Shown here: piece after piece, positions 17,551 through 32,900 of the stretch
Layout of the letters: each line of letters begins with the position of its first letter
Position numbering within the stretch: the stretch's first letter is position 1
NCBI GenBank assembly: GCA_027012955.1
Contig: JALUYL010000077.1
Span: 1-36,012 of the forward strand
Reading direction: 5' to 3'
DNA: 36,012 bases
Source of the DNA: Sulfurovum sp.
Lineage (GTDB): Bacteria > Campylobacterota > Campylobacteria > Campylobacterales > Sulfurovaceae
The notes under the pieces: model-generated
What the model saw: only the letters and a program-made list of their open reading frames with translations
Database searches by the model: none
What the model was told of the DNA's origin: nothing
Made by a program: the position numbers and the translations under genes

Positions 17551-19349
17551 TGAACATAAAAGCACGTTCTATTGAAGAGTTGAACACCCTTGCAGAAGAG
17601 ATACGACAAAAGATTCTTGACACTGTCAGTAAAAATGGTGGACACCTCTCTTCAACTATGGGTGCAACCGATTTGATTGTAGCGATGCATAAAGTGTTTG
17701 ATGTTGAAAAAGACCCTTTTATCTTTGATGTGAGTCATCAAGCGTATGCGCATAAATTACTTACAGGACGGTGGGAGAGCTTTAGTACCTTGCGTCAGTT
17801 TGATGGTGTCTGTGGCTATACTAAGCCAAAAGAATCCAAATACGACTACTATGTGGCAGGGCACAGTTCTACATCCATTTCACTTGCTATAGGAGCTGCT
17901 AAAGCCATCGCACTAAAAGGTGAGGACAGAGTGCCTGTAGCCTTTATAGGCGATGGTTCTATGAGTGCGGGTATGGTGTATGAGGCACTTAATGAGCTTG
18001 GAGACAGAAAATACCCCGTTATCATCATTTTAAATGACAACGAGATGAGTATCGCAAAACCGATAGGGGCTATCTCTAAGTTACTGTCTCAAACAATGGC
18101 AGGCTCTTTTTACCAAAAATTTAAGGGTAAAGTCGAGAAAGTACTCGAACATCTACCTGAAAGCGCACACTATATGGCAAAACGCTTTGAAGAATCATTG
18201 AAGCTTATTACCCCCGGTATTTTATTTGAAGAGATGGGGATAGAATACATAGGCCCTGTTGATGGACATAATATAGAATCTCTCATAGAGACGATGGAAG
18301 TTGCCAAGGCATTGGGTAAACCTGTGATTATTCACGCGCAAACCACCAAGGGTAAAGGGTATGAAATCGCAGAGGGCACCAAAGAACATTGGCATGGCGT
18401 GAGTGCTTTTAATCTTAAAACGGGCATGTCACCTAAAAAAGATGGTGCCAAAGCGGCAACAGCTATCTTCTCAGAAACACTTGTGCAAATGGCGGATGAA
18501 GATGAGAAGATTGTCGGTGTTACAGCCGCCATGCCTTCTGGTACAGGTATGTCTGCGGCGATAGAGAAATATCCTGAACGTTTTTGGGATGTAGCTATTG
18601 CTGAACAGCATGCAGTTACATCTATGGGTCCTTTGGCAAAAGAAGGGTTTAAACCTTTTTGTACCATATACTCCACTTTTTTACAACGTGGCTTTGATCA
18701 GGTGATACATGACATCGCACTTATGGATTTAGGTGTAGCCTTTGCGATGGATAGAGCTGGTATCGTAGGTGAAGATGGTGAGACTCACCAAGGAGCCTTT
18801 GATATCTCTTATTTGAGAGGTATACCTAACATGACACTTCTCGCTCCCTATAATGAAACTACGATGAAACTTTGTATGGCATTTGCAAAAGAGTACACTC
18901 ATCCTTGTGCCTTTAGATACCCAAGAGGTGCCTTTTTAGCAGAGGACTGTGAAAGTCCAGCGTATGAATTAGGTAAATCTGTTTTACTTCAAGAGGGTGA
19001 TGAGATACTCTTTATTGGGTATGGAAACGGTGTAGGGCGTGCACAAAAGGTGGCTGAGCTTGTCGAAGTCAAAGTAGCTATCTTAGATTTACGTTTTGTG
19101 AAGCCATTAGATGTTGAGATGTTAGTGAACTTGAGCAAAAAGTATAAAAAATGGTTTGTATTTTCAGACTCAGCCAAAATGGGTGGTGTCGGTTCTGCTG
19201 TGTTAGAGTGTTTAAGCGAAAATGCTATACAAGATGTTTCGTTAACCTCTTTTGAGTATGATGATGCTTTTATTACCCATGGTAATACGAAGTTGGTTGA
19301 AGAGAGTTTGGGATTACTCCCTGAACAATTGGCAAAAAAAATATTGTAG
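17547..19349 (+). CDS. dxs: 1-deoxy-D-xylulose-5-phosphate synthase
   Basis: SHQAYAHKLLTGR, GDGSMSAGMVYEALN, AEQHAVTSMGPLAKEG; TAG stop inside repeat. Confidence 0.96.
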   Translation: MMNIKARSIEELNTLAEEIRQKILDTVSKNGGHLSSTMGATDLIVAMHKVFDVEKDPFIFDVSHQAYAHKLLTGRWESFSTLRQFDGVCGYTKPKESKYDYYVAGHSSTSISLAIGAAKAIALKGEDRVPVAFIGDGSMSAGMVYEALNELGDRKYPVIIILNDNEMSIAKPIGAISKLLSQTMAGSFYQKFKGKVEKVLEHLPESAHYMAKRFEESLKLITPGILFEEMGIEYIGPVDGHNIESLIETMEVAKALGKPVIIHAQTTKGKGYEIAEGTKEHWHGVSAFNLKTGMSPKKDGAKAATAIFSETLVQMADEDEKIVGVTAAMPSGTGMSAAIEKYPERFWDVAIAEQHAVTSMGPLAKEGFKPFCTIYSTFLQRGFDQVIHDIALMDLGVAFAMDRAGIVGEDGETHQGAFDISYLRGIPNMTLLAPYNETTMKLCMAFAKEYTHPCAFRYPRGAFLAEDCESPAYELGKSVLLQEGDEILFIGYGNGVGRAQKVAELVEVKVAILDLRFVKPLDVEMLVNLSKKYKKWFVFSDSAKMGGVGSAVLECLSENAIQDVSLTSFEYDDAFITHGNTKLVEESLGLLPEQLAKKIL

Positions 19350-19410
19350 GGGTAGACCCATGTGTCTGCCCTATGAATTTTAAAGGGTAAACACACGGGT
19401 TTACCCCTAC
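19346..19410. repeat. REPIN-like inverted pair of GTAG-headed palindromes
   Basis: arms GTAGGGGTAGACCCATGTGTCTGCCCT (19346-19372) and reverse complement of GTAGGGGTAAACCCGTGTGTTTACCCT (19384-19410); 4 mismatches in 27, all transitions. Confidence 0.9.
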
Positions 19411-24531: not shown

Positions 24532-24555
24532 GGTGTGATGGCAATCACCCCCTAC
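24532..24555 (-). repeat. single REP-like unit GTAGGGGGTGATTGCCATCACACC (minus strand)
   Basis: 22/24 identical to the 32877-32900 unit; differences keep the stem paired. Confidence 0.85.
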
Positions 24556-24565
24556 AGGTATAAAA

Positions 24566-25375
24566 ATGAAAATTGCATTTATAGGCGATATCGTAGGCAA
24601 ACCTGGTCGTTTGATGCTCAAACGACACCTTAAAAGGCTACAACAAGAACACTTCATTGACTTTACTATAGCCAACTATGAAAATGCCTCACATGGCTTT
24701 GGACTCACTGAAAAAAACTGTATAGAACTCCTTGGTTACGGGGTTGACATGATGACAGGTGGAAACCACTCTTTTGATAAAAAAGAGATACTGGAGATGT
24801 TTGATAGATATCCGCTCATTCGTCCTATCAATTACCCTAAAGAGACAGCAGGTGAAGGTCTGTATCGGACAACACTTCTAGGGCATGAATTAGCCATTAT
24901 CAACCTTATGGGGCACTACACTATGCCTATGGTAGATAACCCCTTTACGATGATAGTTAAAGAGGTTAAAAAGCTTAAAGCACAACATATAAAACACATC
25001 ATCATAGATATGCATGCGGAGGCAAGTTCAGAAAAAAATGCTTTGCGTCAAATGCTTAAAAATGATATCTCTGCCATACTTGGTACGCATACGCATGTGG
25101 CTACCGATGATTTACAGGTAGTTGATGGCTGTTGTTATGTAACAGATGTGGGGCTTACTGGTTGTCGTAATGGTGTGATAGGTATGGATGATGCTGTACC
25201 TATGCGACGTTTTTTAACCTCGTTAGGAGGGCATTATGATGTACCTGATGAATGTAAAGCCATCTTTCAAATGCTTATTTTTGAGTTAGATGATAATGGA
25301 CGTTGTGTAGGTGCACAGAAGATAAAAATACATGATGACAAACCTAAGATAGTGACTGAGGCTTGGATGGAGTAG
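24566..25375 (+). CDS. TIGR00282-family (YmdB-like) metallophosphoesterase
   Basis: MKIAFIGDIVGKPGR, GGNHSFDKKE, DMHAEASSEK, GTHTHVATDD. Confidence 0.92.
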   Translation: MKIAFIGDIVGKPGRLMLKRHLKRLQQEHFIDFTIANYENASHGFGLTEKNCIELLGYGVDMMTGGNHSFDKKEILEMFDRYPLIRPINYPKETAGEGLYRTTLLGHELAIINLMGHYTMPMVDNPFTMIVKEVKKLKAQHIKHIIIDMHAEASSEKNALRQMLKNDISAILGTHTHVATDDLQVVDGCCYVTDVGLTGCRNGVIGMDDAVPMRRFLTSLGGHYDVPDECKAIFQMLIFELDDNGRCVGAQKIKIHDDKPKIVTEAWME

Positions 25376-25442
25376 GGGGCGATTGCTATCGCACCTTTTA
25401 ATTTTTGTATATCTTCATTGGTATGATAGCAATCGCCCCTAC
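25372..25442. repeat. REPIN-like inverted pair between convergent genes
   Basis: GTAGGGGGCGATTGCTATCGCACC (25372-25395) and GGTATGATAGCAATCGCCCCTAC (25420-25442); both outer ends supply TAG stops. Confidence 0.9.
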
Positions 25443-27331
25443 ATATTTTTCTTTATACGTACTTTTTTAGGGTCAAAAAGGGCTATGGCTTCTTTTATCA
25501 TCGGTTCTTGAAGTAGTGTTGAAGGGTCTTTCTCTTTTGCGGCTTCTGTGTCTCCTGCTTCAGGGGAGATACATGAGCTTTTCATCTCTATCTCTTCTAG
25601 CATAGAACTTGTGTCTGCGTCAGCATGTGGAGGGTTTGTTGTGGTGGATGAATCCACCCTACGCGTAACTTCAGGAGTATTAACTACTTTTTTTTTAGCT
25701 ACATTGACAATCTTGGTTTCAAAACCAAAGGTGTCTTTGACAAACATGTTTATGAGACCCCAGTGTGTGATGAGCAGTTTTTTGTCATCGCCATCTGCGT
25801 GTGAACCCCATGTAAGTTTGTTGTCTTCAAAACTTTCAAAGCTAATGTTACGCTCAAAACAAGTACCCAAGTCATAGTCTCTATCGTAAATCTTTTTGAC
25901 AAGTGCATCAAAGGTTTTTTGATGTGGGTTTACTTTTGGTACAACGGGTGCTGGTGGTGTAGGAACAGGTTCTACTTTGATAAGTTCAACCGTTATTTCT
26001 TCTTCAACTATAGGTTCAGGGATTACCTTAATCTCTTCAGTGACTAAGGCTGTCTCTATGTTTTCAGGCTCTGTTGTACTTTCTTTAACGGGTTCTTCAA
26101 TGGGCTCTTCAACTATAGGGGTTGGAGTGGTTGTTACCTCAGGTTCTTCTTTCGTAATAGGGGTCGGTAAAGAAGTATCTATCTCATCTTGCGTAATGGT
26201 GATGACTTCAGCAGGGGCTGAGACATCAGGGGTAGGTGAAGTGACCATGATTTCAGAGACTTCAACACCTTTGAGCTCATTTTCAAGTCCTCGTATCATG
26301 GTGTCTATGTCTTTGATTTGTAAAGACTCCATCATTTTAAATAGTGCCAGTGAGAGGACAAATTCTCCATCACTTCCTAAAGAAAGCAAGGCTTTTGACT
26401 CAGCGATGACTCTAAAAAAACGTTCGATAATCATGGGGCTAAGTTTCCCTTGATTTGAGAGGAGTAAATCTTTTAGGTAAAGGGTTAGCTCATCAAGAAT
26501 CATCTCTGCTTCATAGTCTCGTGCCATGTTGATGAAGCTTAAAAGCTTACTAGTATCTTTAGCCATAATATCATTGAGTAAGGTTTCCAAGTGGCTAGGC
26601 TCGATGATGCCAAGCATCCCTGTTACGGTAGCTACATCTACAAAGTTTTTAGAGTAGACTATGGCTTGGTCAGTAAGGGTGAGAGAGTCTCTTAGACTTC
26701 CTGCACCAGAACGTGCGATGATGTCTAAGGCTTCTACTTCATACCCTATTGCTTCAAGGTCTAAAATGTGTTCTAGGTGTTTGAGTACAAGATTTTGTGG
26801 TATTTTTTTAAATCTAAAATGCTGTGTTCTCGAAAGAATAGTCGCAGGCAATTTTAAAGGATCAGTCGTTGCCAAGATGAACTTTACAAAATCTGGTGGT
26901 TCTTCCAGTGTTTTAAGTAAAGCATTAAAGGCTTGATTGGTCAGCATATGGACTTCATCGATGATGAAAATTTTGTAACGTGCTGAGCTTGGTTTGTATT
27001 TGGTGTGTTCTATAAGGTCTTTAATATCGTCGATACCACGGTTGGAAGCTGCATCCATCTCTATGATGTCCATATGCGAATTGTCTGTCGCCATTTTACA
27101 GTGGCTGCATACTCCACATGGATGAGAGGTCGCACCTTGTTCACACAGCAGTGCTTTAGCGAAGATACGTGCGGTAGAAGTTTTACCTGAACCTCTAAGT
27201 CCAGAAAAGAGGTAGGCATGAGAGAGTCTGTTGCCATCGAGTGCAAGTGAGAGCGTTTGTGAGACTGCTTCTTGTCCTATGAGGTCATCAAAGGTGGCAG
27301 GTCTGTATTTTCTTGCTAAGGCTAATGACAC
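25439..27331 (-). CDS. dnaX: DNA polymerase III subunits gamma/tau
   Basis: ARKYRPATFDDLIGQE, GLRGSGKTSTARI, zinc site CGVCSHC, DEVHMLTNQAFNALLKTLEEPP; GTG start at 27331 more likely than 27358. Confidence 0.95.
   Translation of the reverse strand: MSLALARKYRPATFDDLIGQEAVSQTLSLALDGNRLSHAYLFSGLRGSGKTSTARIFAKALLCEQGATSHPCGVCSHCKMATDNSHMDIIEMDAASNRGIDDIKDLIEHTKYKPSSARYKIFIIDEVHMLTNQAFNALLKTLEEPPDFVKFILATTDPLKLPATILSRTQHFRFKKIPQNLVLKHLEHILDLEAIGYEVEALDIIARSGAGSLRDSLTLTDQAIVYSKNFVDVATVTGMLGIIEPSHLETLLNDIMAKDTSKLLSFINMARDYEAEMILDELTLYLKDLLLSNQGKLSPMIIERFFRVIAESKALLSLGSDGEFVLSLALFKMMESLQIKDIDTMIRGLENELKGVEVSEIMVTSPTPDVSAPAEVITITQDEIDTSLPTPITKEEPEVTTTPTPIVEEPIEEPVKESTTEPENIETALVTEEIKVIPEPIVEEEITVELIKVEPVPTPPAPVVPKVNPHQKTFDALVKKIYDRDYDLGTCFERNISFESFEDNKLTWGSHADGDDKKLLITHWGLINMFVKDTFGFETKIVNVAKKKVVNTPEVTRRVDSSTTTNPPHADADTSSMLEEIEMKSSCISPEAGDTEAAKEKDPSTLLQEPMIKEAIALFDPKKVRIKKNM
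25643..25662 (-). repeat. REP-like unit GTAG-GGTGGAT-TC-ATCCACC embedded in dnaX CDS
   Basis: GTAG head plus perfect 7-bp stem; translates in-frame as RRVDSST. Confidence 0.65.
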
Positions 27332-27429
27332 ATAATCTCCTATATAAATAAGTACCAATATTGTAGTAGATTTTTACTTTTGGTTGGTATAATTGAGATA
27401 ATAAATATCGGGAAAGAGAAGGAGTTGAT

Positions 27430-31195: not shown

Positions 31196-31702
31196 ATGAG
31201 AGGAATATTATCTACGATGGGGCTTTTGCTTGTTTTGACTGCTTGTGGCTATAAACCGTCTTCTCATTTGATAAGAAATGTTTTTTCTGACACGGTATAT
31301 GTGAAAGTAAAGGTTGATAGGGTAGAGCCAGAAAATGCCCCTTTTGTGAAAGATGAGATGAATCGTCTTGTGTATACACGTTTTAAAGGTCGTGTGACAT
31401 CCAAAGAAGAGGCGGAGAGTGAAATCACCATTGCGTACACGGGAAGTAGTTACTATCCTTTGGCGTATAAAGATGGATATGTGACACGGTATAGAGCAAA
31501 TATACATGTACACTTCGATATGGTGACAAAAGATGGAAAAATGAGTAAAGATATTTCAAGTATCGTTGAGTCAGATATTCAGGCATCGTCACTCACATCT
31601 TCGACCTTAAGAACCGAAGCGATACGTAAAGGGTTGGAAAAAGCTTTAGATGAGTTTTTGGCATACGTGAGTGCAAGAGGAATGCTCGACAAGAGTAAAT
31701 AA
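31196..31702 (+). CDS. LPS assembly lipoprotein LptE-like
   Basis: LLLVLTACGYKPSSH lipobox; located leuS-X-folC. Confidence 0.8.
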   Translation: MRGILSTMGLLLVLTACGYKPSSHLIRNVFSDTVYVKVKVDRVEPENAPFVKDEMNRLVYTRFKGRVTSKEEAESEITIAYTGSSYYPLAYKDGYVTRYRANIHVHFDMVTKDGKMSKDISSIVESDIQASSLTSSTLRTEAIRKGLEKALDEFLAYVSARGMLDKSK

Positions 31703-32880
31703 TGCAAAGCATTCATGACTTTTTAGACCATAAACATCTCTACTACAAAGAGATAGACCATAAGCGTGTACATGACGCTTATGCACTACTTAAACCACAC
31801 ATAACACACCCCAGAACAGTGCATATTGTAGGTACCAATGGTAAAGGCTCAACTGGGCGAATGTTAGCGCATTTGGCATATAAGTCTGGAATGAGTGTAG
31901 GGCATTACTCTTCACCCCATATTTTGAAATTCAATGAACGTATTTGGATAGATGGAAAGGATGTTTCTGATGAGGTTTTGGAAAGTGCACATCAAAGACT
32001 TTTTGCTGTTTTAGGTAAAGAGATGTCTGATGCACTCTCTTACTTTGAGTACACAACACTTTTAGCATTTGTCGTCTTTGAAAAGTATGATTTGATGGTA
32101 CTTGAAGCAGGGCTTGGGGGTGAGTTTGATGCGACCAATGTATGTGACAAAGAATTAAGTATCATTACTCCCATCGGCATAGACCATCAGGCGTTTTTGG
32201 GTGAGACGATAGAAGAGATAGCTTCTACAAAGATACGTAGTATTCAAAAAAAAGCATTATTAGCACCACAGTCTTATGTTGAGGTGGTTGAGGTGGCGAA
32301 GGAGATTGCAAATGATAGAGGTGCAACTTTATTGACTGTAGGGTCGATGAAACCGACCAATCAAAACAATGAGCATATGGTCGATTTTATCGACCCTACA
32401 CTTGCATCCATAGCTAAGACAAAAGCTTGGGCAGATTATCTAATCATTAATGCCAGTATTGCTTTAGAAGCTCTAAATATCTTAAATATTAAGTATGATA
32501 TGAATGATTTAAAAACTTTAGAGCTTTTCGGACGTTTTTATGCCTTGACAGACAATATCCGCATTGATGTAGGGCATAATCCTTTAGCTGCACGTGCCAT
32601 AGAAAAAGCTTTAGATAAAGAAGTAGTACTCATCTATAACTCTTTGGACGACAAAGATTATAAAGAGGTGTTAAGAACGCTTAAACCTAAAGTCAAACGT
32701 GTAGAGATTATTGAGATTGAGTCACAACGTGCGACGACGTTAGAAGAGATAGAAAAAGCGTTGCAAACCGTAGGTTTGGAATATAGTTACTTTAAGAATG
32801 AAATAAAAGAAGAAGAAAACTATTTGGTTTTTGGTTCTTTTTATGTTGTAGAAGCATTTTTAAAACAAAGAAATATGTAG
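31702..32880 (+). CDS. folC: folylpolyglutamate synthase/dihydrofolate synthase
   Basis: GTNGKGSTGRMLAHL, EAGLGGEFDATNV, ITPIGIDHQAFLG; TAG stop inside repeat. Confidence 0.94.
   Translation: MQSIHDFLDHKHLYYKEIDHKRVHDAYALLKPHITHPRTVHIVGTNGKGSTGRMLAHLAYKSGMSVGHYSSPHILKFNERIWIDGKDVSDEVLESAHQRLFAVLGKEMSDALSYFEYTTLLAFVVFEKYDLMVLEAGLGGEFDATNVCDKELSIITPIGIDHQAFLGETIEEIASTKIRSIQKKALLAPQSYVEVVEVAKEIANDRGATLLTVGSMKPTNQNNEHMVDFIDPTLASIAKTKAWADYLIINASIALEALNILNIKYDMNDLKTLELFGRFYALTDNIRIDVGHNPLAARAIEKALDKEVVLIYNSLDDKDYKEVLRTLKPKVKRVEIIEIESQRATTLEEIEKALQTVGLEYSYFKNEIKEEENYLVFGSFYVVEAFLKQRNM
32338..32399. repeat. REPIN-like inverted pair embedded in folC CDS
   Basis: GTAGGGTCGATGAAACCGACCA (32338-32359) and reverse complement of GTAGGGTCGATAAAATCGACCA (32378-32399), 20/22 identical; ORF stays open. 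Confidence 0.85.
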
Positions 32881-32900
32881 GGGGCGATTGCCATCGCACC
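32877..32900 (+). repeat. single REP-like unit GTAGGGGGCGATTGCCATCGCACC between folC and mfd
   Basis: same unit as 25372-25395 (one mismatch); contains folC stop. Confidence 0.88.

Follow-up and report, generated by a model that had tools for sequence, protein, structure and literature searches.

GTAG-headed inverted repeats in frame within folC of a Sulfurovum-clade genome, and the diverse repeats of the same FolC loop in its relatives

In a Sulfurovum-clade metagenome assembly of 1.72 Mb (110 contigs, completeness 76 %), the gene of FolC, an enzyme of folate extension, carries within its reading frame two inverted GTAG-headed hairpins which, by their sequence features, constitute a REPIN of the GTAG type. 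Very probably a RAYT transposase drove the insertion of this element into a permissive loop of the enzyme, where it was tolerated and where such elements later decay or are replaced. An insert of this kind is a known phenomenon, as in-frame GTAG REPs and the RPEs of Rickettsia have already been described; the notable part, as far as the gene comparisons indicate, would be that unrelated repeat families have repeatedly colonised the same enzyme loops across the genus.

The inverted pair and its position in FolC

The window, i.e., the whole stretch of DNA analysed, is contig C77 of the assembly with a length of 36,012 nucleotides. The gene and the parts of the element are located as follows:

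31702..32880, plus strand: folC (folylpolyglutamate/dihydrofolate synthase), the host gene, 392 aa, an ORF with a TIGR01499 score of 295.9 bits
32338..32359, plus strand: left REP unit GTAGGGTCGATGAAACCGACCA, GTAG head and hairpin GGTCGAT-gaa-ACCGACC with one stem mismatch
32360..32377, no strand: spacer of 18 nt separating both REPs
32378..32399, minus strand: right REP unit, inverted, reading GTAGGGTCGATAAAATCGACCA on the minus strand, with a perfect 7-bp stem
32338..32400, plus strand: codons of FolC residues 213-233, the REPIN-encoded VGSMKPTNQNNEHMVDFIDPT by translation, a flexible loop according to the model

The pair at 32338-32399 covers 62 bp overall. As originally predicted, its two 22-nt units are identical at 20 of 22 positions; the differences, at unit positions 12 (G/A) and 16 (C/T), are both transitions. 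Translation from codon 213 leaves the frame intact and yields 21 residues, in agreement with the approximately 21 that had been anticipated. In each unit GTAG stands immediately 5' of a short palindrome, and the units correspond to the pattern GTAGGGTCGATnnnATCGACC or are one mismatch away from it. Two such REPs in inverted orientation, 18 nt apart, have the arrangement of a REPIN. The pair is the top-scoring inverted repeat of folC. Its score of 20.0 was reached by none of 400 synonymous-codon shuffles in which protein and codon counts were preserved (mean 10.5, maximum 17.1), thus chance codon usage does not explain the palindrome.

The structural model of FolC had a mean pLDDT of 91.1 and resembled most closely, among solved folds, the FPGS (FolC) of H. 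pylori (6k8c). The minimum of confidence fell on residues 211-230 (blocks 69 and 59), between a strand at 209-212 and a helix at 232-241. A position in a surface loop had been named as support for an insertion, and the model did place the segment in a low-confidence loop. Low confidence, together with the length variation among relatives, suggests that the segment is exposed at the surface.

Dispersed copies and RAYT genes

In the window genome the GTAGGGTCGATnnnATCGACC pattern was matched 18 times at up to three mismatches, the reversed pattern once. The intergenic copies that the original prediction had recommended to look for were present: the folC REP is dispersed over six other places, all intergenic and mostly inverted pairs, a count without folC itself, without matches of one hairpin that overlap on opposite strands and without one intragenic match of doubtful status. 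The other inverted pairs of the family span 54-71 bp. A family A match with three mismatches inside a gene (C29:4855) is probably due to chance and was discarded. At one mismatch, the pattern was found in 8 of 45 genomes of the genus, the window genome included; 28 genomes from other genera gave no match. More GTAG hairpins with other stems are present in the window:

32877..32900, plus strand: REP from a different family (GTAGGGGGCGATTGCCATCGCACC), which provides the TAG stop of folC with its GTAG head; the family also flanks the L017 RAYT gene
25643..25662, minus strand: single REP GTAGGGTGGATTCATCCACC, within the dnaX linker and in frame (dnaX at 25442-27358, minus strand)
25372..25442, no strand: REPIN (GTAGGGGGCGATTGC...) between convergent genes; its two GTAG ends provide the TAG stops of dnaX and of the gene at 24566-25372
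19346..19410, no strand: family C REPIN (GTAGGGGnnnACC...GTGTnnnCCC), whose left GTAG is the stop of the upstream gene
24532..24555, minus strand: single intergenic REP GTAGGGGGTGATTGCCATCACACC

GTAG heads coincide with the TAG stops of adjacent genes at window positions 19346, 25372, 25442 and 32877 and at G000:C105:13161. In 53 loci, 12 of the 32 G-TAG stops had a REP, ten of them at the 3' end of folC, a second slot in which the REP families differ by species. The stem trinucleotide of family C varies freely with compensating changes (GTAGGGGnnnACC...GTGTn'n'n'CCC), e.g., at 19346-19410 of the window and in G010:C119 and C182; the 39 family C matches of G010 comprise many stem variants and are concentrated on two contigs. 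Across the fetched loci, REP-like hairpins reached 12.9 per 10 kb in intergenic DNA, 4.0 in folC and 0.57 in other ORFs, compared to 0.39, 0.23 and 0.24 for control heads. Most matches in the neighbouring ORFs belong to one conserved coding motif of mfd and were rejected as insertions.

One RAYT gene (NF047646, 151 bits) is present in the window genome, with REPINs of the GTAGGGGGCGATTGCCATCGCACC family, another one than that of folC, on both sides. Every one of the 24 inspected high-scoring RAYTs of the genus, that of the window genome among them, is flanked by GTAG hairpins with a stem of their own; a weaker class (about 92-101 bits, eight loci) is without directly flanking GTAG REPs. At G013:C45 the hairpin flanking the RAYT is GTAGGGTCGATTTATCGACC; it has the same stem as the folC element, but its loop comprises 2 nt and not 3 nt. 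Hairpins of the type GTAGGTCGGG flank the RAYTs of G039, G042 and G013:C67, and similar hairpins lie in the FolC loops of L024, L033 and L077. A RAYT with exactly the folC REP was not found in the window genome, a metagenome assembly of 76 % completeness. TnpA_REP recognises the GTAG motif and the hairpin of a REP and cleaves single-stranded REP DNA (PMC8266576); a RAYT presumably performed the insertion into folC. Three weaker Y1 transposases (L015, L016, L018) were considered as source and rejected, none adjoining a GTAG REP pair; L018 is located at a contig end. The genes L015 and L016 adjoin ORFs resembling RHS-repeat proteins.

The FolC loop and other loops across the genus

In an alignment of FolC, a check proposed with the original prediction, the segment showed no conservation in distant Campylobacterota, whose loop is short, as it is in many congeners. 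FolC of related genera has a short, REP-free loop, and about half of the congeners lack a recognisable palindrome in it. The expectation that the insertion is present only here failed: FolC of L052 carries this family at the identical codon, and in many congeners the loop contains palindromic elements of other kinds. The eight strongest inverted repeats among 84 distinct FolC genes all lie at residues 215-224, with differing sequences. GTAG REPs, labelled by sequence pattern, occupy the loop in about 21 of 56 in-group genes and comprise at least four stem types; non-GTAG repeats, e.g., CTTCGACAGGCTCAG...CTGAGCTTGTCGAAG, were present in eight of the 56, and the loop of L102 holds an apparently degenerate REP. 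The nearest relatives (FolC about 85 % identical) have other elements in the loop, therefore the empty site of the window insertion is deduced from more distant congeners. The insertion event was not seen directly; the strains compared are congeners, none of them a close enough pair.

In a tree from which the loop was excluded, at least 28 changes of loop type were required over 60 tips, a figure that counts state changes, not insertions, on a tree with many unresolved forks. Well-supported sisters often differ in loop type (L077/L080, L026/L039, L047/L087). A common stem plan is seen in families C and D, which may have been inherited, and an allele exchange between species is a possible source of changes in loop type. 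As the stems of A, C/D, C2/F and E are unrelated or clearly different, at least about four separate arrivals seem to be needed, plus those of the non-GTAG repeats. The left ends of the elements cluster at two codons: A, D, F and one E copy share one codon, while C and C2 begin 21 nt upstream of it, and the phase is nearly always the same. The right end lies in most FolC loops a few nucleotides before the helix codon. Downstream of folC in L077 and L080, the mfd start appears with an in-frame TTCGACAGGCTCAG-type repeat (LRQAQG).

In-frame REPs were present in four proteins of the window genome: FolC, DnaX, AnmK and MutY. About 7 of 31 DnaX genes have REPs in the linker, of several families. AnmK of the window genome (G000:C102:6571-7725; L322) contains a family C REPIN at residues 253-285. 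In most congeners the loop of AnmK is short, the alignment breaking around window-genome residues 252 and 286; among the compared loci L337-L366, a family E REP occupies the same loop in L354, and L343 and L345-L349 have other repeats there. Judged by the alignment, AnmK is the cleanest comparison of filled and empty states, and it appears to favour a general tolerance in permissive loops over anything specific to FolC. In MutY (G000:C91:5606-5631, L325), a single in-frame REP encodes GQTHGSAPT.

Explanations and known systems

According to the favoured explanation, a REPIN, a non-autonomous mobile repeat of two inverted GTAG-headed REP hairpins, would have been copied into place by a RAYT/TnpA_REP acting in trans and would have ended up in a FolC loop that is exposed and has little structure. 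The reading phase GTA GGG ... CCC TAC A would avoid the TAG of the GTAG head, so that the protein would have gained about 21 tolerated residues. These residues are probably neutral, and FolC with the insert is expected to remain active. Over evolutionary time elements of the loop would arrive, decay and get replaced with no visible benefit. The loop is regarded as permissive because relatives have either a short loop without any element or one with different REP families or further palindromic repeats.

Against this explanation, an accident of conserved FolC residues and their codon usage hardly deserves consideration as the origin of the palindrome, with 0 of 400 shuffles reaching its score, with the REP recurring in intergenic DNA and with encoded residues that are not conserved. 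Selection of the palindrome as a nucleic-acid element of folC, either a DNA target or a hairpin by which the mRNA is slowed or stabilised, would agree with the perfect stem kept in the right REP, with the presence of some palindrome in the FolC loop of many species and with the general discussion of REPs as RNA or DNA control elements (PMC3733652). However, about half of the congeners do without a recognisable palindrome in this loop, the stem mismatch of the left REP also alters an amino acid compared to an intact REP, and the same sorts of elements occur in loops of the unrelated genes AnmK and DnaX; we consider such a selection very improbable.

Insertion with subsequent tolerance may still be refined, and most of it is compatible with a FolC loop that is a preferred landing site, either since the transposase favours a DNA motif (e.g., GTAG/CTAC) or since a resident REP is exchanged. 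Insertion starts that cluster at two codons in nearly always the same phase are consistent with such a preference, as are the frequent coincidence of GTAG heads with TAG stops (12 of 32 G-TAG stops) and the second slot at the 3' end of folC, whose families vary by species. Yet the reading frame and the loop edges alone limit where insertions survive, a single inherited insertion may underlie families C and C2, several loops are colonised, as AnmK and DnaX show, and REP-free congeners are mostly without GTAG at the site. A preferred site is thus unlikely. Also unlikely is the proposition that FolC at about residues 206-235 and AnmK at about residues 253-285 genuinely serve RAYT-driven REPINs of the Sulfurovum clade as sites of repeated landing or exchange, beyond what tolerance alone would produce; if it held, mobile DNA would keep rewriting the same protein segments of core enzymes.

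RAYT-associated repeats, usually treated as extragenic, thus provide core enzymes with protein sequence genus-wide. One loop seems to be colonisable several times by unrelated repeats, and the FolC loop looks like a safe harbour. In FolC and AnmK, filled, replaced and empty sites form a natural series, by which the site choice of REPINs and the cost of in-frame inserts become testable. Caution is advised in the interpretation of hypervariable insertions in such proteins, which may be mobile DNA and not adaptation.

Intragenic GTAG REPs, including inverted dimers encoding 20-30 residues in frame, were described by Di Nocera et al. 2013 (PMC3733652). In that paper, REP heads are noted as TAG stops, Sulfurovum sp. 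NBC37-1 is named as carrier of GTAG repeats, and one case of different REPs at about the same site is given, recB of two Xanthomonas species; FolC is absent from the passages considered. Shared with our observations are the GTAG-headed hairpins, the in-frame inverted dimers and the TAG stops from heads. In contrast to the one recB case there, one FolC loop and one AnmK loop were here occupied by several unrelated families genus-wide. In the open-access literature searched, this paper was the sole one pairing Sulfurovum with the term repetitive extragenic palindromic, and no prior description of a repeated, genus-wide colonisation of the same FolC and AnmK loops was found there.

With the REPINs and RAYTs of other bacteria (Bertels and Rainey 2011, PMC3116915; PMC8266576) the folC element shares the two inverted REPs, and the genus shares the matching REPs that flank RAYT genes as well as a different REP per RAYT. 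Those REPINs were described as extragenic, whereas the folC copy sits inside a conserved enzyme gene. In-frame palindromic repeats in housekeeping genes are shared with the Rickettsia RPEs (PMC3733652, and general background), although RPE-1 is longer than the folC element. The intragenic RPE-4 and RPE-6 of R. conorii are placed by PMC3733652 in its CGTC class, for which no dedicated transposase was found there. The resemblance to RPEs that had been suggested from the DNA applies to the outcome, an in-frame palindromic insert; the GTAG head and the RAYT association point to the GTAG REP/RAYT group rather than to the RPEs.
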